Positions 3,417 to 19,803 of a stretch of 22,228 nucleotides of DNA are shown here, one piece after another (the first letter of the stretch is position 1; each line of letters opens with the position of its first letter). The notes below the pieces were generated by a model. It did not search any database. It was not told where the DNA came from and was given only the letters and a program-made list of their open reading frames with translations. The position numbers were made by a program, and so were the translations under genes. Where the stretch lies: IMG/VR virus record IMGVR_UViG_3300044695_003394, positions 1-22,228 of that record; one strand, given 5' to 3'. This stretch comes from a virus.

Positions 3417-4072
3417 TGGCAAAAGAAGGATACAAGCCAACTGCTGGAATGCAATCTGCAGCACGTAGAGCAATTAAAATTAAAGAACAAGGTAAAGCAA
3501 AAGGCGCTGGTACGGCGGTAGGCTGGACTAGAGCTGGTCAACTTGCTAGGGGAGAGACACTTAGTTTAAATACAGTTAAGCGAATGTATTCTTATTTTTC
3601 CCGTCATGAAGTAGACAAAAAGGGTAAGGATTGGGATAACGCAGAAAATCCTTCAAATGGAAAGATCATGTGGTTAGCATGGGGCGGAGACGCAGGATTT
3701 TCTTGGTCACGTAAAATAGTTAATAGGGAGAAAAATATGAAAAAGTCATTAGAAGTACAGGAAGTAATAGAAGAAATTAAAGACATGCTAGAAGATGTAA
3801 TTAATCCAGTCGATACAGTAATTGAAATCTCAGAAGATACTTTAGCAAAATCTGTAGACCCTAAACCAGAAGATGCAGAGGATGAGGGCTATGAGTCAGA
3901 TAACGAAGAAGAAGATAAATGGGATAATATTCAAAAAGCTTGCTGGACTGGATATAAGCAGGTAGGAATGAAGGATAAAAATGGCCGTATGGTGCCAAAT
4001 TGTGTTCCAGTAGAAAAAGTTAATAAATCATTATGGGATGGAAAATTTAATCCATCTTCAATAAAAAAATAA
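3416..4072 (+). CDS. Phage protein with GMQxAARRA...WGGDAGxxW domain
   Basis: 218 aa with good Shine-Dalgarno AAGGAG ahead of the ATG. Residues 1-105 carry a conserved phage-associated domain (GMQSAARRAIK, RHEVDKKGKDW, MWLAWGGDAGFSW) that I associate with proteins encoded near, or fused to, head-maturation and structural proteins. Its biochemical function is not established. A central acidic region (about 110-165) follows. A short C-terminal module (CWTGYKQVGMKDKNGRMVPNCVPV) is another motif common in marine and freshwater phages. Both cysteines of that module are present. It is likely virion- or assembly-related. Confidence 0.65.
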   Translation: MAKEGYKPTAGMQSAARRAIKIKEQGKAKGAGTAVGWTRAGQLARGETLSLNTVKRMYSYFSRHEVDKKGKDWDNAENPSNGKIMWLAWGGDAGFSWSRKIVNREKNMKKSLEVQEVIEEIKDMLEDVINPVDTVIEISEDTLAKSVDPKPEDAEDEGYESDNEEEDKWDNIQKACWTGYKQVGMKDKNGRMVPNCVPVEKVNKSLWDGKFNPSSIKK

Positions 4073-4596
4073 TGAATAATCCCAGTTATAAAATTTGGGA
4101 ATCAGTTTTAGATAAAGATCAAGTAGATCATATTTGTAATTTTGCAAAAAATAACCCTATGTATCACCCATTTGATAATTTTTATGGGTTTTCTACTGCT
4201 CCGCATATTATAGATGAAAATAAAACTATTGAAAATCTTTTACAAAAAGCATTAGAATACTTTAAAGATGTTTATGAGGTTAAAGGAAAGAAAGTTATAT
4301 TTGATAGGCAACATGGACTGATAATGAAAAAGGGCGCAAAATTGGATCCACATTTAGATATTTATAATGAAGGGGACCCTAACGCTGGTCCAGGTGATGC
4401 TTTAGTATTTAATATATTTATAACGGATGATTACGATGGAGGAGAACTAGTATTTAAACATCTTGGAGAATCATTTAAAATGAGGGCTGGCGACGCTATT
4501 TTATTTCCAGGATTTTTGCTAAATCATGGAGTAAATGAAGTTAAAAGTGGATCAAGGATTAATATTGTTAATCATTATTTTTTAGTAGATGCATAA
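4072..4596 (+). CDS. 2OG-Fe(II) dioxygenase, prolyl-hydroxylase-like (copy 1)
   Basis: 174 aa. This family couples 2-oxoglutarate decarboxylation to hydroxylation of a substrate, using Fe(II). The double-stranded beta-helix core carries the iron triad His94-x-Asp96 (DPHLDIYN) and His152 (LLNHGVNEV), with Arg162 (SGSRINI) placed to bind 2-oxoglutarate. The FITDDYDGGELVF strand is typical of the P4H/2OG-FeII_Oxy_3 group. The substrate is unknown. Options include host or virion proteins or small molecules. The start overlaps the previous stop by one base. Confidence 0.85.
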   Translation: MNNPSYKIWESVLDKDQVDHICNFAKNNPMYHPFDNFYGFSTAPHIIDENKTIENLLQKALEYFKDVYEVKGKKVIFDRQHGLIMKKGAKLDPHLDIYNEGDPNAGPGDALVFNIFITDDYDGGELVFKHLGESFKMRAGDAILFPGFLLNHGVNEVKSGSRINIVNHYFLVDA

Positions 4597-4682: not shown

Positions 4683-4913
4683 ATGTTACATTTAAATGAA
4701 CGTGGTGTAGACGTATTTATCAATAAATATAAATCAATTACTAATGATGCATATTGGAACAACTATGATTTAATTATTTGGAAAAAAAATAATAATGCAT
4801 TTTTTAATATAAAAGGAATATTTAATAAAGCTTGGGGAATGGCAGATAGAGTATCTGTAGATAATAAAGGAATGTGGGTTCTACCTAAACAATATGTCAA
4901 ATATTTTAAATAA
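4683..4913 (+). CDS. Unknown 76-aa protein
   Basis: 76 aa, aromatic-rich (several Trp, Tyr and Phe), basic, with KAWGMADRVSVDNKGMWVLPKQYVKYF at its end. It has no membrane segment, cysteine or recognised motif. The compact alternating pattern suggests a small alpha/beta fold that may bind a polymer, but that is a guess. It is the first gene behind the consensus promoter and overlaps whiB by 20 nt, so it is translated with it. Confidence 0.65.
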   Translation: MLHLNERGVDVFINKYKSITNDAYWNNYDLIIWKKNNNAFFNIKGIFNKAWGMADRVSVDNKGMWVLPKQYVKYFK

Positions 4914-5205
4914 TTTAGGGGTAGACAAAGACGATTTAGACTGGTGGCACCTTGCAGTTTGTAGAGGCATGGACACTAACTTATTTTATGATAAATATGA
5001 AAATGATCCTAAAATTGCAAAAAATGTTGACGAAGCATGTCTAGCTTGCCCAGTTATATCAATGTGTTATAAATCTGGATCTGATGGCGATGAGTATGGC
5101 GTATGGGGCGGAGTTTATTTAAACTCTGGATCGATTGATAAAACTAGAAATTTACATAAGACAACTGATACATGGAAAAGATTGAAAAAGAAAAATGTTT
5201 ATTGA
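4894..5205 (+). CDS. whiB: WhiB-family Fe-S transcription regulator
   Basis: 103 aa. WhiB proteins are actinobacteria-specific regulators that hold a 4Fe-4S cluster sensitive to O2 or NO and bind the sigma factor's region 4. The four ligands are visible: Cys23 (AVCRG), then Cys49-x2-Cys52-x5-Cys58 (EACLACPVISMC), followed by the GVWGG turn (69-73) and a basic C-terminal tail (KRLKKKN) for DNA contact. Phage WhiB copies are known (for example in mycobacteriophage TM4) and can reprogram or block host WhiB. Here it sits with redox genes further downstream, so redox sensing by the phage is plausible. It is the best host-lineage marker in the window. Confidence 0.92.
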   Translation: MSNILNNLGVDKDDLDWWHLAVCRGMDTNLFYDKYENDPKIAKNVDEACLACPVISMCYKSGSDGDEYGVWGGVYLNSGSIDKTRNLHKTTDTWKRLKKKNVY

Positions 5206-6295: not shown

Positions 6296-6865
6296 ATGAC
6301 AGCAGTGGTAGCCCTTATTCATGAAAATAAAGTCCTTCTAGGAGGAGATTCTGCTGCATCTGATGATAAAACAGGATTAATTTTTTCACGCACAGATCCA
6401 AAAGTTTTTAGAGTAGGTCAGTTTGGAATTGCATTTGTTGATAGTTTTAGAATGGGACAAATTCTTCAATATAACTGGACGCCACCAATTTACAAACCAA
6501 CAGCAGGATTTAAAAATTTAGAAAAATTTATGCGTACCAAGTTTGTTGAATCAATTAAAGAAACATTTAAAGAACAGGGATATGGTAATCAAACCGCAGG
6601 ATCTACAGAAGATGGCGATGAAGGCGGAGTTTTCTTAATAGCAGTTCAAGGTGCAGGTAGAATATTTACTATGGATAGTGATTTCCATATAGGTGAAGCA
6701 GACATTCAATACATGGCAGAAGGTGCTGGGCAAGAATTAGCTTTAGGATCACTATACTCAACATCATCTATTAAAACACCCCGTAAACGGGTCAGGATGG
6801 CTCTAGAAGCGGCTGCAAAATTTAACATGGCAGTTAGAGCACCATTTACAATAATTGAAATTTAG
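6296..6865 (+). CDS. Proteasome/HslV-like Ntn hydrolase
   Basis: 189 aa. N-terminal-nucleophile peptidases of the proteasome beta/HslV type use the first Thr after Met removal. Here the start is Met-Thr-Ala-Val-Val-Ala. Counting the Thr as 1, Asp17 (GGDSAAS) and Lys35 (TDPKVFRVG) sit where the family has Asp17 and Lys33. The FRVGQFGIAF strand is also typical. There is no propeptide, as in HslV. No ATPase partner is encoded nearby, so it may act alone, on small substrates, or with a host ATPase. A direct role in virion maturation or host protein turnover is inference. It has its own leaderless promoter. Confidence 0.8.
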   Translation: MTAVVALIHENKVLLGGDSAASDDKTGLIFSRTDPKVFRVGQFGIAFVDSFRMGQILQYNWTPPIYKPTAGFKNLEKFMRTKFVESIKETFKEQGYGNQTAGSTEDGDEGGVFLIAVQGAGRIFTMDSDFHIGEADIQYMAEGAGQELALGSLYSTSSIKTPRKRVRMALEAAAKFNMAVRAPFTIIEI

Positions 6866-7290: not shown

Positions 7291-8424
7291 ATGAATAAAA
7301 AACTAATAACTGCAATATCAATACTATCACTAACACTATCTACTACATTTATTGCTGTAGAGGCGAAAGCTAATCAAGTACCCTCAACAATAGCAATTCT
7401 GGACACTGCATTAGACACTTCTCTACCAATTTTTAAAGATAAAATTGTATATGAAGTTTGTGTTTTAGAATTGGCCTCATGTCCAAATGGACAAAAGTTT
7501 ATGGAAGGTCCAGGATCTACTGTACTTCCATTTGATATTATTTCTAAAAATGGTTTTGATCACGGAACACAAATGGCATCAGTTGCAGTAGCAACTAATC
7601 CAAATATTAAAATTGTTTTTGTAAGAATTATTGGAAACAATCCATCTGGCTCAAGACAATCAACTGGCGAAACTGGTGTTTCTTTAGCATTAAAATGGGT
7701 ATTAGATAATAAATCTCGTTTTAATATACAGAGCGTTGCAATGTCTCAATCAAATCATGCAATACTAACAACATTAACAGACTATTGCCCTACAACACCA
7801 ATGTTGCGTGGAGTAATATCTTCATTAGTTTCTTCAGGCACACCAGTGTTTTTTCCAGCAGGAAACAACAGAGACCTTTCAAGGTTATCTTGGCCAGCAT
7901 GTATTAACGATTCGATATCAGTTGGAATGGCAGACCAGTATGAGCAAATAGATAACTTTTCTAACTTTGATAAAGATAGATTAGACTTTTATGCTCTTGG
8001 AAATATGAAAGTTGCGGTTCCAGGAGGTTCTGTAAAAAATGCAGCAGGGTCATCAATTTCTACGCAAGTTGCTGCTGCTACATGGGCTGGAATTAAAAGT
8101 TCAAATCCTTCTTTAACTTATCAACAAGTTTTAGATATGCTAAATAATGCTTCAAAGCCAATCCGTGGTGCTAGGGGGCAATATGGTAAACTTATCTCTA
8201 GTGCCCCTATTGAAATTGCACCAAGTGCTCCAATAGTAACAAAACCAGTCGCTCCAGTAACTAAAACTGCAGAGCAATTGGCTGCCGAAGCAAAGGCTGC
8301 TCTTACAATTGAGGCTAACAAAGCAATTTCAGAGGCGGAAGCAAGATACCAAGCTGAAGTTAAACTGGCTGCAGATAAACTGGCTGCAATTAAATTGGAG
8401 TGGGCTAAAAAAATAAATGGCTAA
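7291..8424 (+). CDS. Secreted subtilisin-like serine protease
   Basis: 377 aa. The signal peptide (about 1-27: MNKKL, a hydrophobic core, cleavage after AKA) predicts export. The S8 catalytic triad is in order: Asp38 (AILDTALD), His91 (GFDHGTQMAS) and Ser255 (AAGSSISTQVAAA). Asn192 (FPAGNNRD) provides the oxyanion hole. The mature enzyme starts almost directly at the Asp motif, so there is no long inhibitory propeptide. Residues about 308-377 form a Pro/Ala linker and an Ala/Lys/Glu-rich helix that may bind the cell surface. It could process surface or virion proteins or act as a moron that alters the host envelope. Subtilases are unusual in phages. Confidence 0.85.
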   Translation: MNKKLITAISILSLTLSTTFIAVEAKANQVPSTIAILDTALDTSLPIFKDKIVYEVCVLELASCPNGQKFMEGPGSTVLPFDIISKNGFDHGTQMASVAVATNPNIKIVFVRIIGNNPSGSRQSTGETGVSLALKWVLDNKSRFNIQSVAMSQSNHAILTTLTDYCPTTPMLRGVISSLVSSGTPVFFPAGNNRDLSRLSWPACINDSISVGMADQYEQIDNFSNFDKDRLDFYALGNMKVAVPGGSVKNAAGSSISTQVAAATWAGIKSSNPSLTYQQVLDMLNNASKPIRGARGQYGKLISSAPIEIAPSAPIVTKPVAPVTKTAEQLAAEAKAALTIEANKAISEAEARYQAEVKLAADKLAAIKLEWAKKING

Positions 8425-8623
8425 CATGACAGTGCTAGAAGAAATAATTAAAGAAATCGGTGAGGAGTTGTACCAGAAATGGTACAACGCCCTTGCAATA
8501 GAAGACAGAACAGAAGAATCTTCTAAGGCTATGTCTATAAATGCTGGAGAAACAACATTTTGGGTAGTTCAAACATTTATGAATAAATTTAATGCAGCAG
8601 CAGAGGAACTAAAAGACAAATAA
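8417..8623 (+). CDS. Small helical protein before thioredoxin
   Basis: 68 aa (start at 8417, or 8426 from the second ATG), largely helical with EEIIKEIGEELYQKWYNAL and a later NKFNAAAEELKDK helix. It overlaps the subtilase stop and its own stop shares a base with the thioredoxin ATG. No family was recognised. Its coding sequence contains a perfect 9-bp inverted repeat with a GAAA loop. Confidence 0.65.
   Translation: MANMTVLEEIIKEIGEELYQKWYNALAIEDRTEESSKAMSINAGETTFWVVQTFMNKFNAAAEELKDK
8467..8488 (+). repeat. Perfect 9-bp inverted repeat with GAAA loop
   Basis: Arms GTTGTACCA (8467-8475) and TGGTACAAC (8480-8488) flank GAAA. As RNA this is a stable GNRA-capped hairpin inside a reading frame, about 135 nt before the thioredoxin start. 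No T-tract follows, so it is not a standard terminator. Confidence 0.8.
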
Positions 8624-8928
8624 TGCTAGAAATAAATGACGAAAATTTTGATAAAATATTAACTCTTCATAATGTTTTAGTTGTTGATTTTTGGGCAACA
8701 TGGTGTAGGCCATGTAAAATGTTTTCTCCTATTTTAGAGGAAATTTCTAAAGAAAATAATATTTGGATTGCCAAAATAGATGTAGATCAAAATCCAATAC
8801 AGGCTTCAAAATACAGCATAACCTCAGTTCCAACAACAATTATATTTGAAAATGGTAAAGAGGTTAAAAAAATACTTGGCGCAAAACCTAAACATCAAAT
8901 GATTGAGGAGTTAAGTAAATGGCTATAG
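8623..8928 (+). CDS. trxA: Thioredoxin
   Basis: 101 aa, the normal thioredoxin length. The active site WCRPC (27-31) follows the VVDFWATWC strand, and the cis-proline is at Pro70 in SVPTTIIFENG. Asp22 is the buried family Asp. Thioredoxin reduces protein disulphides using thioredoxin reductase, which is not encoded here, so the host enzyme must supply electrons. Possible partners in this window are the peroxiredoxin and the GPx-like protein, or host enzymes such as ribonucleotide reductase. The TrpCysArgProCys active site differs from the common WCGPC, which usually shifts redox potential. It is co-translated with the gene before and the gene after. Confidence 0.92.
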   Translation: MLEINDENFDKILTLHNVLVVDFWATWCRPCKMFSPILEEISKENNIWIAKIDVDQNPIQASKYSITSVPTTIIFENGKEVKKILGAKPKHQMIEELSKWL

Positions 8929-10620: not shown

Positions 10621-10763
10621 GTTTAGTATTAAAGTCAGAAAATCCATTAGTTCATAGTATGTGTGAAAAAAATGATTGTGAAAATAAAGCAACAAGAATT
10701 ATTAAAGATTTAAATCTTTATAGCTGGGTGTGTGAAGAATGCTATGGAAAATATAGGCCTTGA
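10617..10763 (+). CDS. Four-cysteine zinc-finger micro-protein
   Basis: 48 aa from GTG 10617, which overlaps the previous stop by 4 nt (GTGA). Cysteines occur as MCEKNDCENKATR and WVCEECY, a CxxxxC plus CxxC zinc site with about 18 residues between pairs. The pattern is that of a small treble-clef-like finger. Its stop overlaps the start of the next oxygenase gene, suggesting translational coupling. Confidence 0.65.
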   Translation: MSLVLKSENPLVHSMCEKNDCENKATRIIKDLNLYSWVCEECYGKYRP

Positions 10764-11383
10764 TAAAAAATATAAATAATAAAATTTATATAATTGAGGG
10801 ATATATATCTAAAAGTACATCAGATTTTTTAACAGAAACATTTAATAGTACTACATCAGATGCACCAGATTACCAGATAAAAGGTGGTCCGTCTTTAAGT
10901 CCAGAAAATGGATATACTTTTAAATGTGGTAATCCTATTAAAAGCTACCAAGATGATAATAATTACAATATTGGAATAGACATTTTGACAATGTTATGTA
11001 ATTCAATGTCAAACACAATTTCAGACTTTTTAGATACAAAAATGGATATTAAAACAATGTTTTATGGGTTAATGCTAGAAGGTTCTGAAATGAAGACGCA
11101 TACAGATAATTACATTACACCTAATGACCCAGAAAGTATTAGAAAAAATTCAAAAGACGATTGGTCTGGGCTTCTTTATCTTAACGATGATTATGAAGGT
11201 GGGCTTTTAGAGTTTCCCCAAGAAAATTTTTCAATAAAACCAAAACCTGGAACCTTTATTTTTTTTAAAGGGGATCATGATTTACCACATCAGGTGTCAA
11301 AAATTGAAAAAGGGCATAGAAACGTAATAATATCATTTTTTTGGCCTATAGAATATCGTGGCCTAGATACTGTTTTGGGCTAG
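10760..11383 (+). CDS. 2OG-Fe(II) dioxygenase, prolyl-hydroxylase-like (copy 2)
   Basis: 207 aa, from a TTG start overlapping the preceding stop (TTGA). No other in-frame start occurs early. Fe(II) ligands are His114-x-Asp116 (KTHTDNYI) and His177 (LPHQVSKI), and Arg187 (GHRNVII) should bind 2-oxoglutarate. LLYLNDDYEGGLLEF is the typical jelly-roll strand. The N-terminal 100 residues are more divergent and may set substrate choice. Among the copies here it looks closest in its motif spacing to copies 1 and 3. Confidence 0.85.
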   Translation: MIKNINNKIYIIEGYISKSTSDFLTETFNSTTSDAPDYQIKGGPSLSPENGYTFKCGNPIKSYQDDNNYNIGIDILTMLCNSMSNTISDFLDTKMDIKTMFYGLMLEGSEMKTHTDNYITPNDPESIRKNSKDDWSGLLYLNDDYEGGLLEFPQENFSIKPKPGTFIFFKGDHDLPHQVSKIEKGHRNVIISFFWPIEYRGLDTVLG

Positions 11384-11984: not shown

Positions 11985-12086
11985 ATGTGCACAAAATCAA
12001 TATCTAGTTCTTCGGATCTAGATATTGATATTTTAAATACTATAGATGATCAAATTGATAAAGCTGAAGGAACAGGATTAATATAG
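11985..12086 (+). CDS. Micro-protein, unknown
   Basis: 33 aa, MCTKSISSSSDLDIDILNTI then DDQIDKAEGTGLI: a Ser-rich start and an acidic helix. Two bases after the upstream stop, and its stop (TAG) shares a base with the GTG of the next oxygenase. The tight spacing supports translation, but the size makes this tentative. Confidence 0.45.
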   Translation: MCTKSISSSSDLDIDILNTIDDQIDKAEGTGLI

Positions 12087-12757
12087 TGATAGAAATTATT
12101 CATAAATCAGATATTGTTGAATATAAAAATGTATTTACAAAAGAAGAGTGTGATTACATAATTTCTTATTGGAAAGATCTTGACGACTGGATATTATCTT
12201 GTTTTTACAATATGTATATATTGTCTGGAAATAAACCACATACTCCAGAAGGTGGGCACGCTTTAAGAAAATTTCAATTAAAATCACAAGAATTAGCAGA
12301 AAAAGTATTTAATAGAAAATTAAAACAAATAAGTTTAAGTTCTCATAAATGGGAGCCAGGAGCATTTGCGCCAGACCATTCAGATAATACCGAATTAGAT
12401 GGGACTCCAAATGCATGGCAAGAAAATAAATTAGTTACCATGATTTATTTAAATGATAATTTTGATGGAGGACTCCTGACATTTAGAGACCATGAAATTT
12501 CTTTTAAACCAGAGGCTGGATCAGTAATTGTTTTTGATGTTGGAATTCAAAACGTACATGCGGTTACTGAAGTAACATCTGGAACTAGATACACCATGAT
12601 GGGATCATATGATTACGCAGATAGTGTATACAATGTTGATCTAAAAAAAATTAAAGAAGATACCAATCCTTTAAGAGAAAAGTTAAGAGAAGAATGGGCT
12701 AATGGAAAAATTATGCCAAAAGATTCCGCAACCTACTATAAACCAATAAATAAATAA
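12086..12757 (+). CDS. 2OG-Fe(II) dioxygenase, prolyl-hydroxylase-like (copy 3)
   Basis: 223 aa from GTG 12086. Ligands are His98-x-Asp100 (PDHSDNTE) and His158 (NVHAVTEV), with Arg168 (GTRYTMM) for 2-oxoglutarate. TMIYLNDNFDGGLLTF is the family's core strand. The N-terminal VFTKEECDYIISYW helix is typical of P4H-like phage enzymes. A C-terminal extension (about 180-223) is charged and ends in KPINK. It runs head to tail with copy 4, only 2 nt apart, so the two are co-transcribed. Confidence 0.85.
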   Translation: MIEIIHKSDIVEYKNVFTKEECDYIISYWKDLDDWILSCFYNMYILSGNKPHTPEGGHALRKFQLKSQELAEKVFNRKLKQISLSSHKWEPGAFAPDHSDNTELDGTPNAWQENKLVTMIYLNDNFDGGLLTFRDHEISFKPEAGSVIVFDVGIQNVHAVTEVTSGTRYTMMGSYDYADSVYNVDLKKIKEDTNPLREKLREEWANGKIMPKDSATYYKPINK

Positions 12758-12759
12758 TT

Positions 12760-13623
12760 ATGTATACAATAAAAACTATAGAATTTCCTGGATACGAAGA
12801 ATTAAAAAATAATTTTAATATTTATAAAGATATTTTTATCAATGAATCAATAATTGCTTTTAGAAATGCAAATTTAGACTTTGAAATGCAAACTAAAATA
12901 ATGCATTTATTTGGTGATAATTTAGGCTGGTATCCGAATTCTTCAAACACCAACCCTTCAGATTATATAGAAGATCATCATAAACACATGAATGATATAA
13001 ATATTAAAGAAAAAAACTTATTGATGCTTCAATGGCACCAAGAGCATGTTGCACAAGAGCATAACCCTTATGTTAGTGGTGTTTGGAATATGACCTTATT
13101 TAAATGCAAACTAGAAACTGGAAAAACATATTTTGTAGATATGTCAAAAGTTTTTAATATGTTTGATGAAACAGATAAAGAATTTATGATAAATTGTAAA
13201 ATACATTTTAATAATTATAGGTGGTTTAATAATAAAGATTATTACTACTATGTACCAGAAGAGAATCAGATTACAAACAAAGATGAATATGTAACCTATA
13301 ACTTAGTCTCAGAACATTGGATAACTAAAGAAAAAACTATAAGAACATATTTTTCTATGTATGAAGACACCACGCTTTATAAATTTAAAGATCAAGATCC
13401 TTCTATTGATGAAATTAATAAATATAAAGAAATTTCTAATAAAATAAATGATATTGTAAATAATAATGAAAATATAAGAATACAGCACATTTGGCAACAA
13501 GGAGACTTGCTGATCCCAGACTTATTTAAATTAGCACATGCAGTAAGTGGTGGGTTTGATAAAAATGAAAGAAAGCTAGAAGGAATGTTTGGCACATTGG
13601 AGCCATGGAAAGTAAGAAGTTAG
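12760..13623 (+). CDS. TauD/TfdA-like 2OG-Fe(II) dioxygenase (copy 4)
   Basis: 287 aa, a different subfamily from the others. Ligands are His93-x-Glu95 (LQWHQEHVA) and His260 (LAHAVSGG), with Arg271 (NERKLEG) at the 2-oxoglutarate position. GKTYFVDMSKVFN follows the family's GG-T-F-DM pattern, and WQQGDLLIPD matches the W-GDL-I-D strand. The ligand is Glu where most members have Asp, which still supports iron. TauD-type enzymes usually act on small molecules such as sulfonates or amino acid derivatives. The substrate here is unknown. Its stop is 1 nt from the stop of the convergent copy 5. Confidence 0.8.
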   Translation: MYTIKTIEFPGYEELKNNFNIYKDIFINESIIAFRNANLDFEMQTKIMHLFGDNLGWYPNSSNTNPSDYIEDHHKHMNDINIKEKNLLMLQWHQEHVAQEHNPYVSGVWNMTLFKCKLETGKTYFVDMSKVFNMFDETDKEFMINCKIHFNNYRWFNNKDYYYYVPEENQITNKDEYVTYNLVSEHWITKEKTIRTYFSMYEDTTLYKFKDQDPSIDEINKYKEISNKINDIVNNNENIRIQHIWQQGDLLIPDLFKLAHAVSGGFDKNERKLEGMFGTLEPWKVRS

Positions 13624-13624
13624 T

Positions 13625-14191
13625 TTAATATTTTAAAGCGTAATTTTTATCATTACCTAACCAAATCAACATAGTATATCTACTATCTACTATTTTTTTA
13701 ATTTCATGATCATAATTAAGTTCTCCATTTTGAGACGGAAAACAAAATAAATCCCCACAACGAGGCTGATATTTATATTGTAAATAAGGAAAATGAATTT
13801 CACCTTCATTAAATACATCATTTAAATAAATAGAGCAAGTATATTTAATATGAGGATTTTTCCCATAATCATTATCGCCATGAATTTCTAAATATGCACC
13901 ATCATTTTGTTTTGCTAACCAAAATGAAGAAGGATATAAATCTTCATTAACTTCATATTCAATTTTTATTTTTTCTACACATTTTTCAAAGTATTTTAAT
14001 ACTAAATTTTTAATTTCTCCAAGTTCATCTAAATTAATTGATGATTTATGATAATTATCTTTACCAAACATTTCAATAAAATATTTATTTTCCTGAAAAG
14101 ATTGAAACTTATTTAAATTATTATCAATATATTTAATTACCTGATATGATTCTGATTTTTTTATAAATTCATTAAATAGTTTTATTGTCAT
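13625..14191 (-). CDS. 2OG-Fe(II) dioxygenase, prolyl-hydroxylase-like (copy 5)
   Basis: 188 aa on the minus strand inside a plus-strand block. Ligands are His104-x-Asp106 (EIHGDNDYG) and His162 (YDHEIKKI), with Arg171 (DSRYTML) for 2-oxoglutarate. SIYLNDVFNEGEIHF is the core strand. The region is very AT-rich, even for this window. It has its own leaderless promoter and is convergent with copy 4 and divergent from 14227, which suggests a separately inserted one-gene cassette. Confidence 0.85.
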   Translation of the reverse strand: MTIKLFNEFIKKSESYQVIKYIDNNLNKFQSFQENKYFIEMFGKDNYHKSSINLDELGEIKNLVLKYFEKCVEKIKIEYEVNEDLYPSSFWLAKQNDGAYLEIHGDNDYGKNPHIKYTCSIYLNDVFNEGEIHFPYLQYKYQPRCGDLFCFPSQNGELNYDHEIKKIVDSRYTMLIWLGNDKNYALKY

Positions 14192-14440: not shown

Positions 14441-15178
14441 ATGAATACAATAGACAACCCATCTGCAGCACACACATCAGAATGCGTTTCATACGCACCA
14501 GATGTCCTGTGCATTTGCCAAGATACACCAATTGATGATGTAAAAAGCTTCTACGATATTAGCTTAAAGTCGGCTGACGGAGAAGATAATTTCCTAAAAG
14601 AATTTGAAGGTAAGGTAACACTTGTCATTAACGTAACAGGAGAATGCGGTAATGCACCACAATACGGAGTTATTGAAGATTTGTATCAAGAATATAAGAA
14701 CGAAGGATTTGAAGTTTTAGCAGTTCCAACAAATGACTATTGCGGAGCAGGATTAACATACGGAGAGCATGTGTATGGCTGTGAAGATGCAAAGGGAGCA
14801 CGTAAATTTGGAATAGATAAGTATAACGTAACATATAAGTTTTCAGAGTTAGTTGAGTCTAACCCTGGCCCAGGCGAGATCATTCCAGGTCTTCCAGGAA
14901 AATATGGAGTCGTAAAACCACATGCTATTTATAAGTGGCTAGGATTTCAAGGTTCAAAAAATAAAAATACAAAAAATAACGGCACATTTATGTCTGGTAA
15001 TTTTGAAAAGTATTTAGTAGATAGAAATGGAAAGCTTGTAGCATATTTTAGAAATGGTGACCTGTTAAACCAGAACCAAGAAAGTATGGAAATGGGCTTA
15101 ACCGAGGATGGCGCTCCAAGAGCTTCAGTTGCACGTAAAAAGATTACAGATGCAATAGAGAAAGCGTTGGCAGCATAA
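14441..15178 (+). CDS. Glutathione-peroxidase-like (thioredoxin fold) protein
   Basis: 245 aa. The core TLVINVTGECGNAPQYGVIEDL follows the GPx pattern for the strand, the catalytic Cys (Cys69) and the Tyr/Leu helix. EVLAVPTNDY matches the LGFPCNQF region, and NFEKYLVDRNGKLV matches the WNFxKFLVDxxG block. Members reduce hydroperoxides with thiol donors, in bacteria mostly thioredoxin. The usual catalytic Gln and Trp positions do not hold those residues here, and extra Cys (101, 114) follow the active site. Activity may be altered. The C-terminal 35 residues are an extension. It is leaderless and could be served by the thioredoxin encoded at 8623. Confidence 0.75.
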   Translation: MNTIDNPSAAHTSECVSYAPDVLCICQDTPIDDVKSFYDISLKSADGEDNFLKEFEGKVTLVINVTGECGNAPQYGVIEDLYQEYKNEGFEVLAVPTNDYCGAGLTYGEHVYGCEDAKGARKFGIDKYNVTYKFSELVESNPGPGEIIPGLPGKYGVVKPHAIYKWLGFQGSKNKNTKNNGTFMSGNFEKYLVDRNGKLVAYFRNGDLLNQNQESMEMGLTEDGAPRASVARKKITDAIEKALAA

Positions 15179-15978: not shown

Positions 15979-16008
15979 TTGACTAAATCAATATAAATAT
16001 TGTATAAT
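15979..16008 (+). promoter_or_regulatory. Promoter of ahpC-ahpD
   Basis: TTGACT (15979-15984), an 18-bp spacer and TATAAT (16003-16008). Start predicted near 16015, where a perfect 10-bp palindrome CTACTAGTAG (16015-16024) lies. The palindrome could be an operator. The leader is about 20 nt. Confidence 0.75.
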
Positions 16009-16035
16009 AAACACCTACTAGTAGAATGGAAATTA

Positions 16036-16572
16036 ATGAAAACCGTAGGTGATAAATTAGGTAATTTTAATATAATGGGAGTAAAACCTGGAGCCCTTGC
16101 TCCTGATGATTCTTCATTTGAAGTAATTAATCAAGACTCATTTCCTGGAAAATGGAAAATTATTGCATTTTACCCAAAAGATTTTACATTTGTTTGCCCA
16201 ACAGAAATTGTTGCATATGATAAATTAGTTAATGATTTTAACGATAGGGATGCAGTTTTAATGACTGGATCTACAGACAATGAATTTTGTAAACTTGCAT
16301 GGCGAAATGCACATGATGATCTTAAAAAAACTAATTCTTGGTCTTTTGCTGATACTAATCGTGAATTATCTGGTGATCTTGGAGTTATTACTCCTCAAGG
16401 TGTTGCTCTTCGTGCCACATTTATTGTAGATCCAGAAAACACTATACAACACATTACAGTAAATAATCTTGATGTAGGACGAAATCCAGAAGAGGCTTTG
16501 CGTGTTTTAGATGCTCTTCAAACAGGAGAGCTTTGTGCATGCAATCGCCCATTGGGCGGAGAAACCCTATAA
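16036..16572 (+). CDS. ahpC: Alkyl hydroperoxide reductase AhpC (2-Cys peroxiredoxin)
   Basis: 178 aa. Peroxiredoxins reduce H2O2, organic peroxides and peroxynitrite. The peroxidatic Cys54 sits in YPKDFTFVCPTEI (the PxxxT/SxxC motif), and the resolving cysteines are Cys167 and Cys169 in ELCACN. This CAC tail near the end, together with HPGKW/FPGKW and VGRNxxEALRVLDALQ, matches the actinobacterial (mycobacterial) AhpC rather than the AhpF-linked enteric type. ATG 16036 was chosen over an in-frame TTG at 16000 because the -10 box falls inside that extension. GGA (16029-16031) gives a modest RBS. It is translationally coupled to ahpD. Confidence 0.92.
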   Translation: MKTVGDKLGNFNIMGVKPGALAPDDSSFEVINQDSFPGKWKIIAFYPKDFTFVCPTEIVAYDKLVNDFNDRDAVLMTGSTDNEFCKLAWRNAHDDLKKTNSWSFADTNRELSGDLGVITPQGVALRATFIVDPENTIQHITVNNLDVGRNPEEALRVLDALQTGELCACNRPLGGETL

Positions 16573-17084
16573 TGTCTTGGGTAGATAGTTTAAAAGATAC
16601 AATTCCAGATTATGCTAAAGATACTAAATTAAATTTAGATGCAGTAATTAATAGATCAACTATTGATGTAGAACAAGCATCTTATTTGGCTCTGGCAGCA
16701 GCATTTGCTACTGGCAATAGTAAACTTGTAGTTTATATTTCATCTAATTTAACTGATGAGGTTGAAAAAAATGCAGCCCTAACTGCTGCCTCAATTATGG
16801 CTCAAAATAATATTTGGTACCCATATCTTGAAATGGCAGACGATCAAAGTCTTAAAGGATTGCCAGCGCAACTTAGAATGAATGCAATATCATCACATGG
16901 TGGAACAACTAAAGGTAAGTTTGAAGCTTATTCTTTAGTAGCGTCTATTATAGGTAAATGTCATTTTTGTGTAAAGGCTCATTATGAGACCTTAAAGCAA
17001 GAAGGGTACACAGTAGAACAACTAAGAGATATTGGAAGAATTGCAGCGGTAATAAATTCGGTGTCTAGGGTACTATCAGCATAA
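16572..17084 (+). CDS. ahpD: AhpD alkylhydroperoxidase
   Basis: 170 aa. AhpD is the partner that reduces AhpC in mycobacteria, taking electrons from lipoamide of dihydrolipoamide acyltransferase. The CxxC centre is Cys130-x2-Cys133 (KCHFCVKAH), with His137 and Glu118 (FEAY) as the proton relay, all at the positions known in Mycobacterium AhpD. The relay His132 is Phe here, with His at 131. IPDYAKDTKLNL and MNNxWY/AQNNIWYPY are shared signatures. Its ATG shares a base with the ahpC stop. An ahpC-ahpD pair on a phage is unusual. Confidence 0.88.
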   Translation: MSWVDSLKDTIPDYAKDTKLNLDAVINRSTIDVEQASYLALAAAFATGNSKLVVYISSNLTDEVEKNAALTAASIMAQNNIWYPYLEMADDQSLKGLPAQLRMNAISSHGGTTKGKFEAYSLVASIIGKCHFCVKAHYETLKQEGYTVEQLRDIGRIAAVINSVSRVLSA

Positions 17085-19112: not shown

Positions 19113-19236
19113 TGATTGTTACACAGGTAACGTATGTTGGGAACCATATAACCATTTAACTAGATCTATACTTATTCTATCAATCGTCATAGGTATAGTA
19201 CTCATAATCAAGATATATAGAGGATATAGGAAGTAA
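19105..19236 (+). CDS. Single-span membrane micro-protein
   Basis: 43 aa with two Cys in the N-terminal part (MTDDCYTGNVCWEP), one hydrophobic segment (about 21-37, SILILSIVIGIVLIIKI) and a basic end (YRGYRK). The orientation should be N-out by the positive-inside rule. It is the last plus-strand gene. Confidence 0.55.
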   Translation: MTDDCYTGNVCWEPYNHLTRSILILSIVIGIVLIIKIYRGYRK

Positions 19237-19803
19237 TACAGAGCCTTGGTGCCATAGGCACATATAGCTTTATTTTGATCCATATCCTAGCTTCCCCCCT
19301 CTCATATACATCTCTTAAAACACCCTTTAAAGCCTTTTTAGAGCCATATCTATCAGTATTCTATGAAAGTAAATACTATTAATTATAACGTAAATGTTAT
19401 CGATATATACTAAGATATATATACATGTATTTGAGCGATCCCCACTACTCCCCATAATCCTCCACATGTAGGGCACATGGCATATATTACCCATATTGTC
19501 AAGAGCTTTGGACCAAATGTTATATATATGTTATATAAATGAGTTCCAGGATATATAAACATGTCTCGTAAAGCCATATATTTGCCCACATATTTTGCCA
19601 TATTTTATATACTTTTTGTTATATTCTATATATGTTTAATAAAATAATTATACATTTATTATATATTTTGAGAGATTTTCAGGGATTTTTTATAGCTCTT
19701 CGTAAAGCGAACATTCTGCCCTTACGGATATATAACAAATGGGACATATATATCCAAGATGTACATATAGTACAAATCGGACATACTGTCCCAATATGTT
19801 TTG
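19237..19803 (+). other. Non-coding, AT-rich convergence region
   Basis: About 570 bp with no convincing gene on either strand, between the last plus-strand gene and the last minus-strand gene. It holds long TATATA-rich tracts, a GTGCC-ATA-GGCAC hairpin near 19250, degenerate GCCATATTTT-type repeats and a long inverted repeat at its right end. A replication origin, a transcription-termination zone, or both would fit. Nothing decides this. Confidence 0.5.
19573..19610 (+). repeat. Iteron-like degenerate repeats
   Basis: Three GCC-[CA]-ATATTT-type units begin at 19573, 19584 and 19597 (GCCATATATTT, GCCCACATATTTT, GCCATATTTTATA). The spacing of 11 and 13 bp is close to one helical turn. Confidence 0.4.

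Follow-up and report, generated by a model that had tools for sequence, protein, structure and literature searches.

In B. thailandensis, AhpC works through Cys57, Cys171 and Cys173, which are equivalent to the cysteines of the phage protein described here, and AhpD binds to AhpC and reduces it (PMC6626918). With cumene hydroperoxide, the AhpD/SucB/Lpd system supports this AhpC about fivefold better than TrxC, and the promoter of the operon is bound by OxyR (PMC6626918). This is the closest characterised relative that was found. The Burkholderiales ahpCD operons resemble the phage locus in gene order, in the three cysteines of AhpC, in a well-supported common AhpD clade and, for most of their copies, in the AhpD motif CHFC-V-K-x-H. 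However, in the bacterial loci read, the two genes are usually 13–156 bases apart, whereas a one-base overlap prevails in the phage copies, and the tail of AhpC is CPC instead of the CAC of the phage copies, which lie in phage genomes. The AhpC-AhpD system of M. tuberculosis (2bmx, 1gu9/1knc) shares with the phage pair the enzyme class, the AhpD fold, the residues Glu118, Cys130, Cys133 and His137 and the cysteine positions of AhpC, but the identities are 47% (AhpC) and 36% (AhpD), His132 is replaced by Phe in the phage protein, and its genes form a separate clade in both trees.

Phage-mediated defence against reactive oxygen species (ROS) has been proposed for fresh water by Kavagutti et al. 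2019 (PMC6802176). In that article, the antioxidant proteins of freshwater phages comprise thioredoxins, glutaredoxins, glutathione peroxidases, superoxide dismutases and ferritin, and many phages of the set are actinophages bearing WhiB; its main text contains neither the name AhpC nor the name AhpD. Those phages are similar to the present ones in carrying antioxidant genes, but what the present ones carry is an operon that joins a peroxidase to its dedicated reductase. In the literature found, which consisted of general papers on ROS defence, a phage ahpC-ahpD pair is not reported. The idea of antioxidant genes in phages as such has been published before.

Composition and occurrence of the operon

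The window (the whole stretch of DNA analysed, an IMG/VR record of 22,228 bases) is a fragment on which endolysin, WhiB and HNH genes are found. The elements of the operon are as follows:

15979–16008, + strand: sigma70-type promoter TTGACT-N18-TATAAT, 5′ of ahpC
16015–16024, no strand assigned: 10-base palindrome CTACTAGTAG, close to where transcription should start; unsupported as a regulatory element
16036–16572, + strand: ahpC, a typical 2-Cys peroxiredoxin (C54 peroxidatic; C167 and C169 resolving), 178 aa, reading frame without interrupting stop
16572–17084, + strand: ahpD, an AhpD-family disulfide reductase (E118, C130-HF-C133, H137), 170 aa, reading frame without interrupting stop

The stop of ahpC and the start of ahpD share one base (16572, TAATG), as had been predicted. 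In AhpC, Cys54 lies within PKDFTFVC, and Cys167 and Cys169 form the CAC tail, which agrees with the original prediction at each position. The PxxxTxxC active site and the catalytic Arg (P47, T51, C54, R126) do not vary in any of the aligned phage copies or in 163 bacterial homologues, and the C-terminal CxC resolving pair of the AhpD-linked class is CAC in 150 of 150 loci. The protein passes the Pfam AhpC-TSA threshold (80.4 against a cut-off of 26), its best solved relative is M. tuberculosis AhpC (2bmx, E 2.7e-46), and it misses the cut-off of the NCBIfam equivalog model TIGR03137 (AhpC; 109 of 272 bits), which we take to represent the AhpF-linked type of AhpC. Some phage copies (L094, L133, L139) carry an insertion of 13–18 residues after AhpC residue 109.

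In AhpD, the CxxC (Cys130 and Cys133), Glu118 and His137 are found exactly where they were expected, and they are invariant in 22 aligned phage copies; in the CHFC motif, Phe stands at the place of His132 of the M. tuberculosis protein. The latter is also the best solved relative (1gu9, E 2.6e-23), and the all-helical fold of the predicted model (pLDDT 89.6) matches it with a TM of 0.87 and an rmsd of 2.2 Å. As for the family models, the Pfam CMD threshold is passed, the core-domain model TIGR00778 is narrowly passed (28.3 against 27.8), and the cut-off of the subfamily model TIGR00777 of NCBIfam is missed (118 of 191.95 bits).

In the IMG/VR scans, 322 stretches resembled ahpC and at least 599 resembled ahpD. 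In all, 150 loci were examined (the window and 137 other contigs, 12 of which are counted twice), and both genes are adjacent and in the same order in all 150, 149 of them outside the window, with the one-base overlap in 142. The catalytic residues are complete in every phage copy, except for ahpD copies cut at contig ends. Among the phage copies, dN/dS has a median of about 0.06 for ahpC and 0.07 for ahpD, values which are rough since synonymous sites are near saturation; judged by these ratios, both genes are under strong purifying selection. With intact genes, complete catalytic residues and many viral loci, the predicted phage-borne operon of the AhpD-linked class stands. Deposited phages were searched as well: in 50,697 records, including the large Streptomyces phages, there is no match to AhpD, and the AhpC-like matches covering most of the query are at most about 36% identical.

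The consensus promoter predicted before ahpC was recovered: five such sites occur in the window, compared with 0.09 expected by shuffling, and 27 bases separate the end of this one from the ahpC start. The palindrome had been regarded as a sign of regulation, and this part did not hold. Since 10-base palindromes are common (30 in the window, or 1.35 per kb), one of them within a 40-base leader says little about regulation; the leader of the window has no stable RNA hairpin and folds no better than its shuffles; and the leaders behind ahpC promoters, nine distinct ones with that of the window, differ in sequence, so that a conserved operator is unsupported. Seven of these nine leaders fold better than shuffles (z below −1.5), versus 12% of 81 other promoters. 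Leader hairpins of differing sequences directly after the promoter were seen in L014, L083, L116, L133, L134, L138 and L143. Another leader, GGGTAAGATAAGAAAGTTGGTGCAAATCCAACCTACCC, is common to L057, L058, L070 and L075 upstream of ahpC and is predicted to fold; in the two loci searched (L058, L075), it matched no Rfam family. An Rfam search of ten sources returned tRNAs only. In most relatives, ahpC starts directly behind tRNA genes, and the pair sits among tRNAs.

A further predicted thiol peroxidase lies shortly upstream of the operon:

14441–15178, + strand: glutathione-peroxidase-family protein (PF00255)

Five 2OG-Fe(II)/TauD-type oxygenases are encoded within about 10 kb (4072–4596, 10760–11383, 12086–12757, 12760–13623 and 13625–14191); they are iron enzymes and may be peroxide targets. 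An HslV-like peptidase (6296–6865) and a subtilase-family protease (7291–8424) are close neighbours of each other.

Descent of the two genes

The pair had been called mycobacterial in type, which is correct for the enzyme class and the fold and incorrect for descent. Among the matches listed, identity to Burkholderiales proteins reaches 67% for AhpC and 57% for AhpD, and the phage motif CHFCVKAH is close to CHFCVKSH of Burkholderiales, while M. tuberculosis has CSHCLVAH. The bacterial contig scan used two peptide patterns, and the matches listed may omit nearer bacterial relatives. Neither pattern would match the mycobacterial WPKDFTFV, and Actinomycetota were therefore surveyed separately. 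In a Pseudomonadota survey, 33 of 398 genomes were matched, with the highest scores in the Burkholderiales-like group (assigned from the tree).

Trees of both genes were built by a quick method. The phage genes form one clade in each (support 99 for AhpD and 97 for AhpC), and the actinomycete clade with M. tuberculosis excludes them in both (99 and 97). Mycobacterial descent is ruled out by the identities together with the two trees. As the original prediction required, the pair is not nested in one host strain either. In the AhpD tree, the phage clade joins the Burkholderiales group and one Actinomycetota metagenome-assembled genome (MAG), KLAP143, with support of 100; in the AhpC tree, its neighbours are a broader proteobacterial group, with Burkholderiales and KLAP143 among them. 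The pair was probably acquired once from a Burkholderiales-type operon, then kept together and passed among phages as a unit. KLAP143, whose genome of 1.6 Mb contains a related ahpC-ahpD with touching genes (L166, 3001–4082), may alternatively be a donor or recipient, although in the AhpD tree it sits on a long branch and its placement is unsure.

Electron supply and function

No flavoprotein disulfide reductase (Pyr_redox_2) was found in 17 phage records, and all 14 control genomes were positive, which speaks against a phage-encoded reductase for AhpD in these records. Since no such pyridine-nucleotide disulfide oxidoreductase was detected, the last electron step is presumably that of the host. 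The window also encodes a possible alternative reductant:

8623–8928, + strand: thioredoxin (WCRPC)

A thioredoxin gene is present in 16 of the 17 ahpCD-bearing records and in 1 of 14 relatives without ahpD (Fisher p 9e-7, which is overstated, as the contigs share descent and many are fragments). With no flavoprotein reductase detected and thioredoxin nearly always present, the electrons may come from host lipoamide as well as from thioredoxin.

In the proposed mechanism, Cys54 of AhpC would reduce hydrogen peroxide, organic peroxides and perhaps peroxynitrite, and the oxidised Cys54 would be resolved by Cys167 and Cys169. AhpD, translated from the same message, would re-reduce AhpC through the Cys130–Cys133 dithiol, and would itself be recharged by host electrons, most likely from the lipoyl arm of a host E2 and its lipoamide dehydrogenase (NADH); thioredoxin would offer another route. 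In summary, the pair is read as an auxiliary antioxidant module of Burkholderiales-type origin, in which AhpC is reduced by a host-recharged AhpD, and a probability of roughly 0.75 is assigned to this joint reading; the missed cut-offs of TIGR03137 and TIGR00777 and the co-occurrence of thioredoxin with the operon count against it. The pair probably protects infected cells against oxidative damage. The enzymatic activity, the electron donor, the donor lineage and the benefit to the infected cell are what we infer from the comparison of genes and proteins.

It is unlikely that AhpC is a working peroxidase driven mainly by phage or host thioredoxin, with AhpD as a minor or substrate-specific donor. 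The thioredoxin gene tracks the operon as described above, so thioredoxin may have this role, and AhpC of B. thailandensis does accept TrxC (PMC6626918), but the constant presence of ahpD next to ahpC in 150 of 150 loci under strong purifying selection, and the preference of that characterised relative for AhpD (PMC6626918), argue against it. Still less probable is that the pair serves thiol-redox control in the infected cell, be it for ribonucleotide reduction, protection of the iron-dependent oxygenases of the phage or a draw of electrons from lipoyl enzymes of the host, and not to ward off peroxide from outside. A ribonucleotide reductase is encoded by a complete-looking relative, and the five oxygenases and the glutathione-peroxidase-family protein of the window are mostly near the operon, but this support is indirect, and the catalytic residues are those expected of an ordinary peroxidase pair.

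Carrier phages and their hosts

A contig from another metagenome is 100% identical to the window along 11,762 bases that span the operon, and a further one, from a different metagenome, is 99.8% identical over 6,408 bases, likewise across the operon; both run through both flanks, so the locus is phage-borne, as claimed originally, rather than a chimera joined at about 16 kb. That host DNA was misassembled onto a phage contig is extremely improbable: ahpCD are normal bacterial genes, but these two flank-spanning contigs, the 149 further viral loci, complete-looking phage genomes with the pair and a phage clade apart from all sampled hosts rule out chimerism or host contamination.

Parts of the window between 2269 and 7077 align in order with contigs of 115–120 kb. 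Two contigs with the pair, of 118,809 and 112,158 bases, have identical 123-bp ends, as expected of complete genomes, and are not flagged complete in the IMG/VR listing. The hallmark genes were read on the first of them, which has ahpD at 19138–19647 and encodes DNA polymerase, terminase, capsid maturation protease, ribonucleotide reductase, helicase and primase; a homologous capsid protease is found in 13 of 16 large ahpD-bearing contigs. The large Streptomyces phages (BillNye, Blueeyedbeauty and relatives; 125–131 kb) are similar in genome size, and their proteins are up to 54% identical to the DNA polymerase of this contig over its whole length (54% to BillNye) and up to 56% identical to its capsid protease over half its length. 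The window further contains a marker of an actinobacterial host:

4894–5205, + strand: WhiB-family regulator

WhiB is used as such a marker in PMC6802176. Together with the phage kinship, it points to actinobacteria as hosts, at the level of the phylum. By their gene content, the carriers appear to be large (about 112–120 kb) tailed phages infecting actinobacteria and distant kin of the large Streptomyces phages.

Fourteen contigs, of which three are 112–119 kb long, encode a capsid protease with 82–97% identity to the one of the 118.8-kb genome, and none of them gave an ahpD match, in a scan run without a positive control of its own, with a profile that does match in bacterial scans; in a separate phage scan for ahpD, 16 phage records were matched. 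A universal core role of ahpC-ahpD in these phages is thereby ruled out, and the pair is an accessory unit.

In the Actinomycetota survey, AhpD was found in 24 of 396 sampled genomes, of which KLAP143 alone is smaller than 4.5 Mb, and the AhpD-bearing genomes also have the matching AhpC class; in the order of KLAP143, it is found in 1 of 58 genomes, that is, in KLAP143 alone. Since AhpD was found in so few of these genomes, the phage may bring the host a missing system. Small-genome actinobacteria, if they are the hosts, probably lack the AhpC-AhpD system. It is a tentative idea that the phages import a complete Burkholderiales-type peroxide relay into hosts without AhpD or its AhpC, which would open a new path from the lipoyl dehydrogenase complexes to peroxide.

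Earlier proposals of phage antioxidant functions concerned mostly single genes. In the present phages, the peroxidase stays with the reductase dedicated to it in well over 100 viral contigs, and the pair is without close relative among deposited phage genomes. The idea of phage antioxidants is thereby made testable at the level of the enzymes, the electron donor and the effect on infected cells. If the hosts lack the system, the virus would wire a new redox branch onto the central metabolism of the host.
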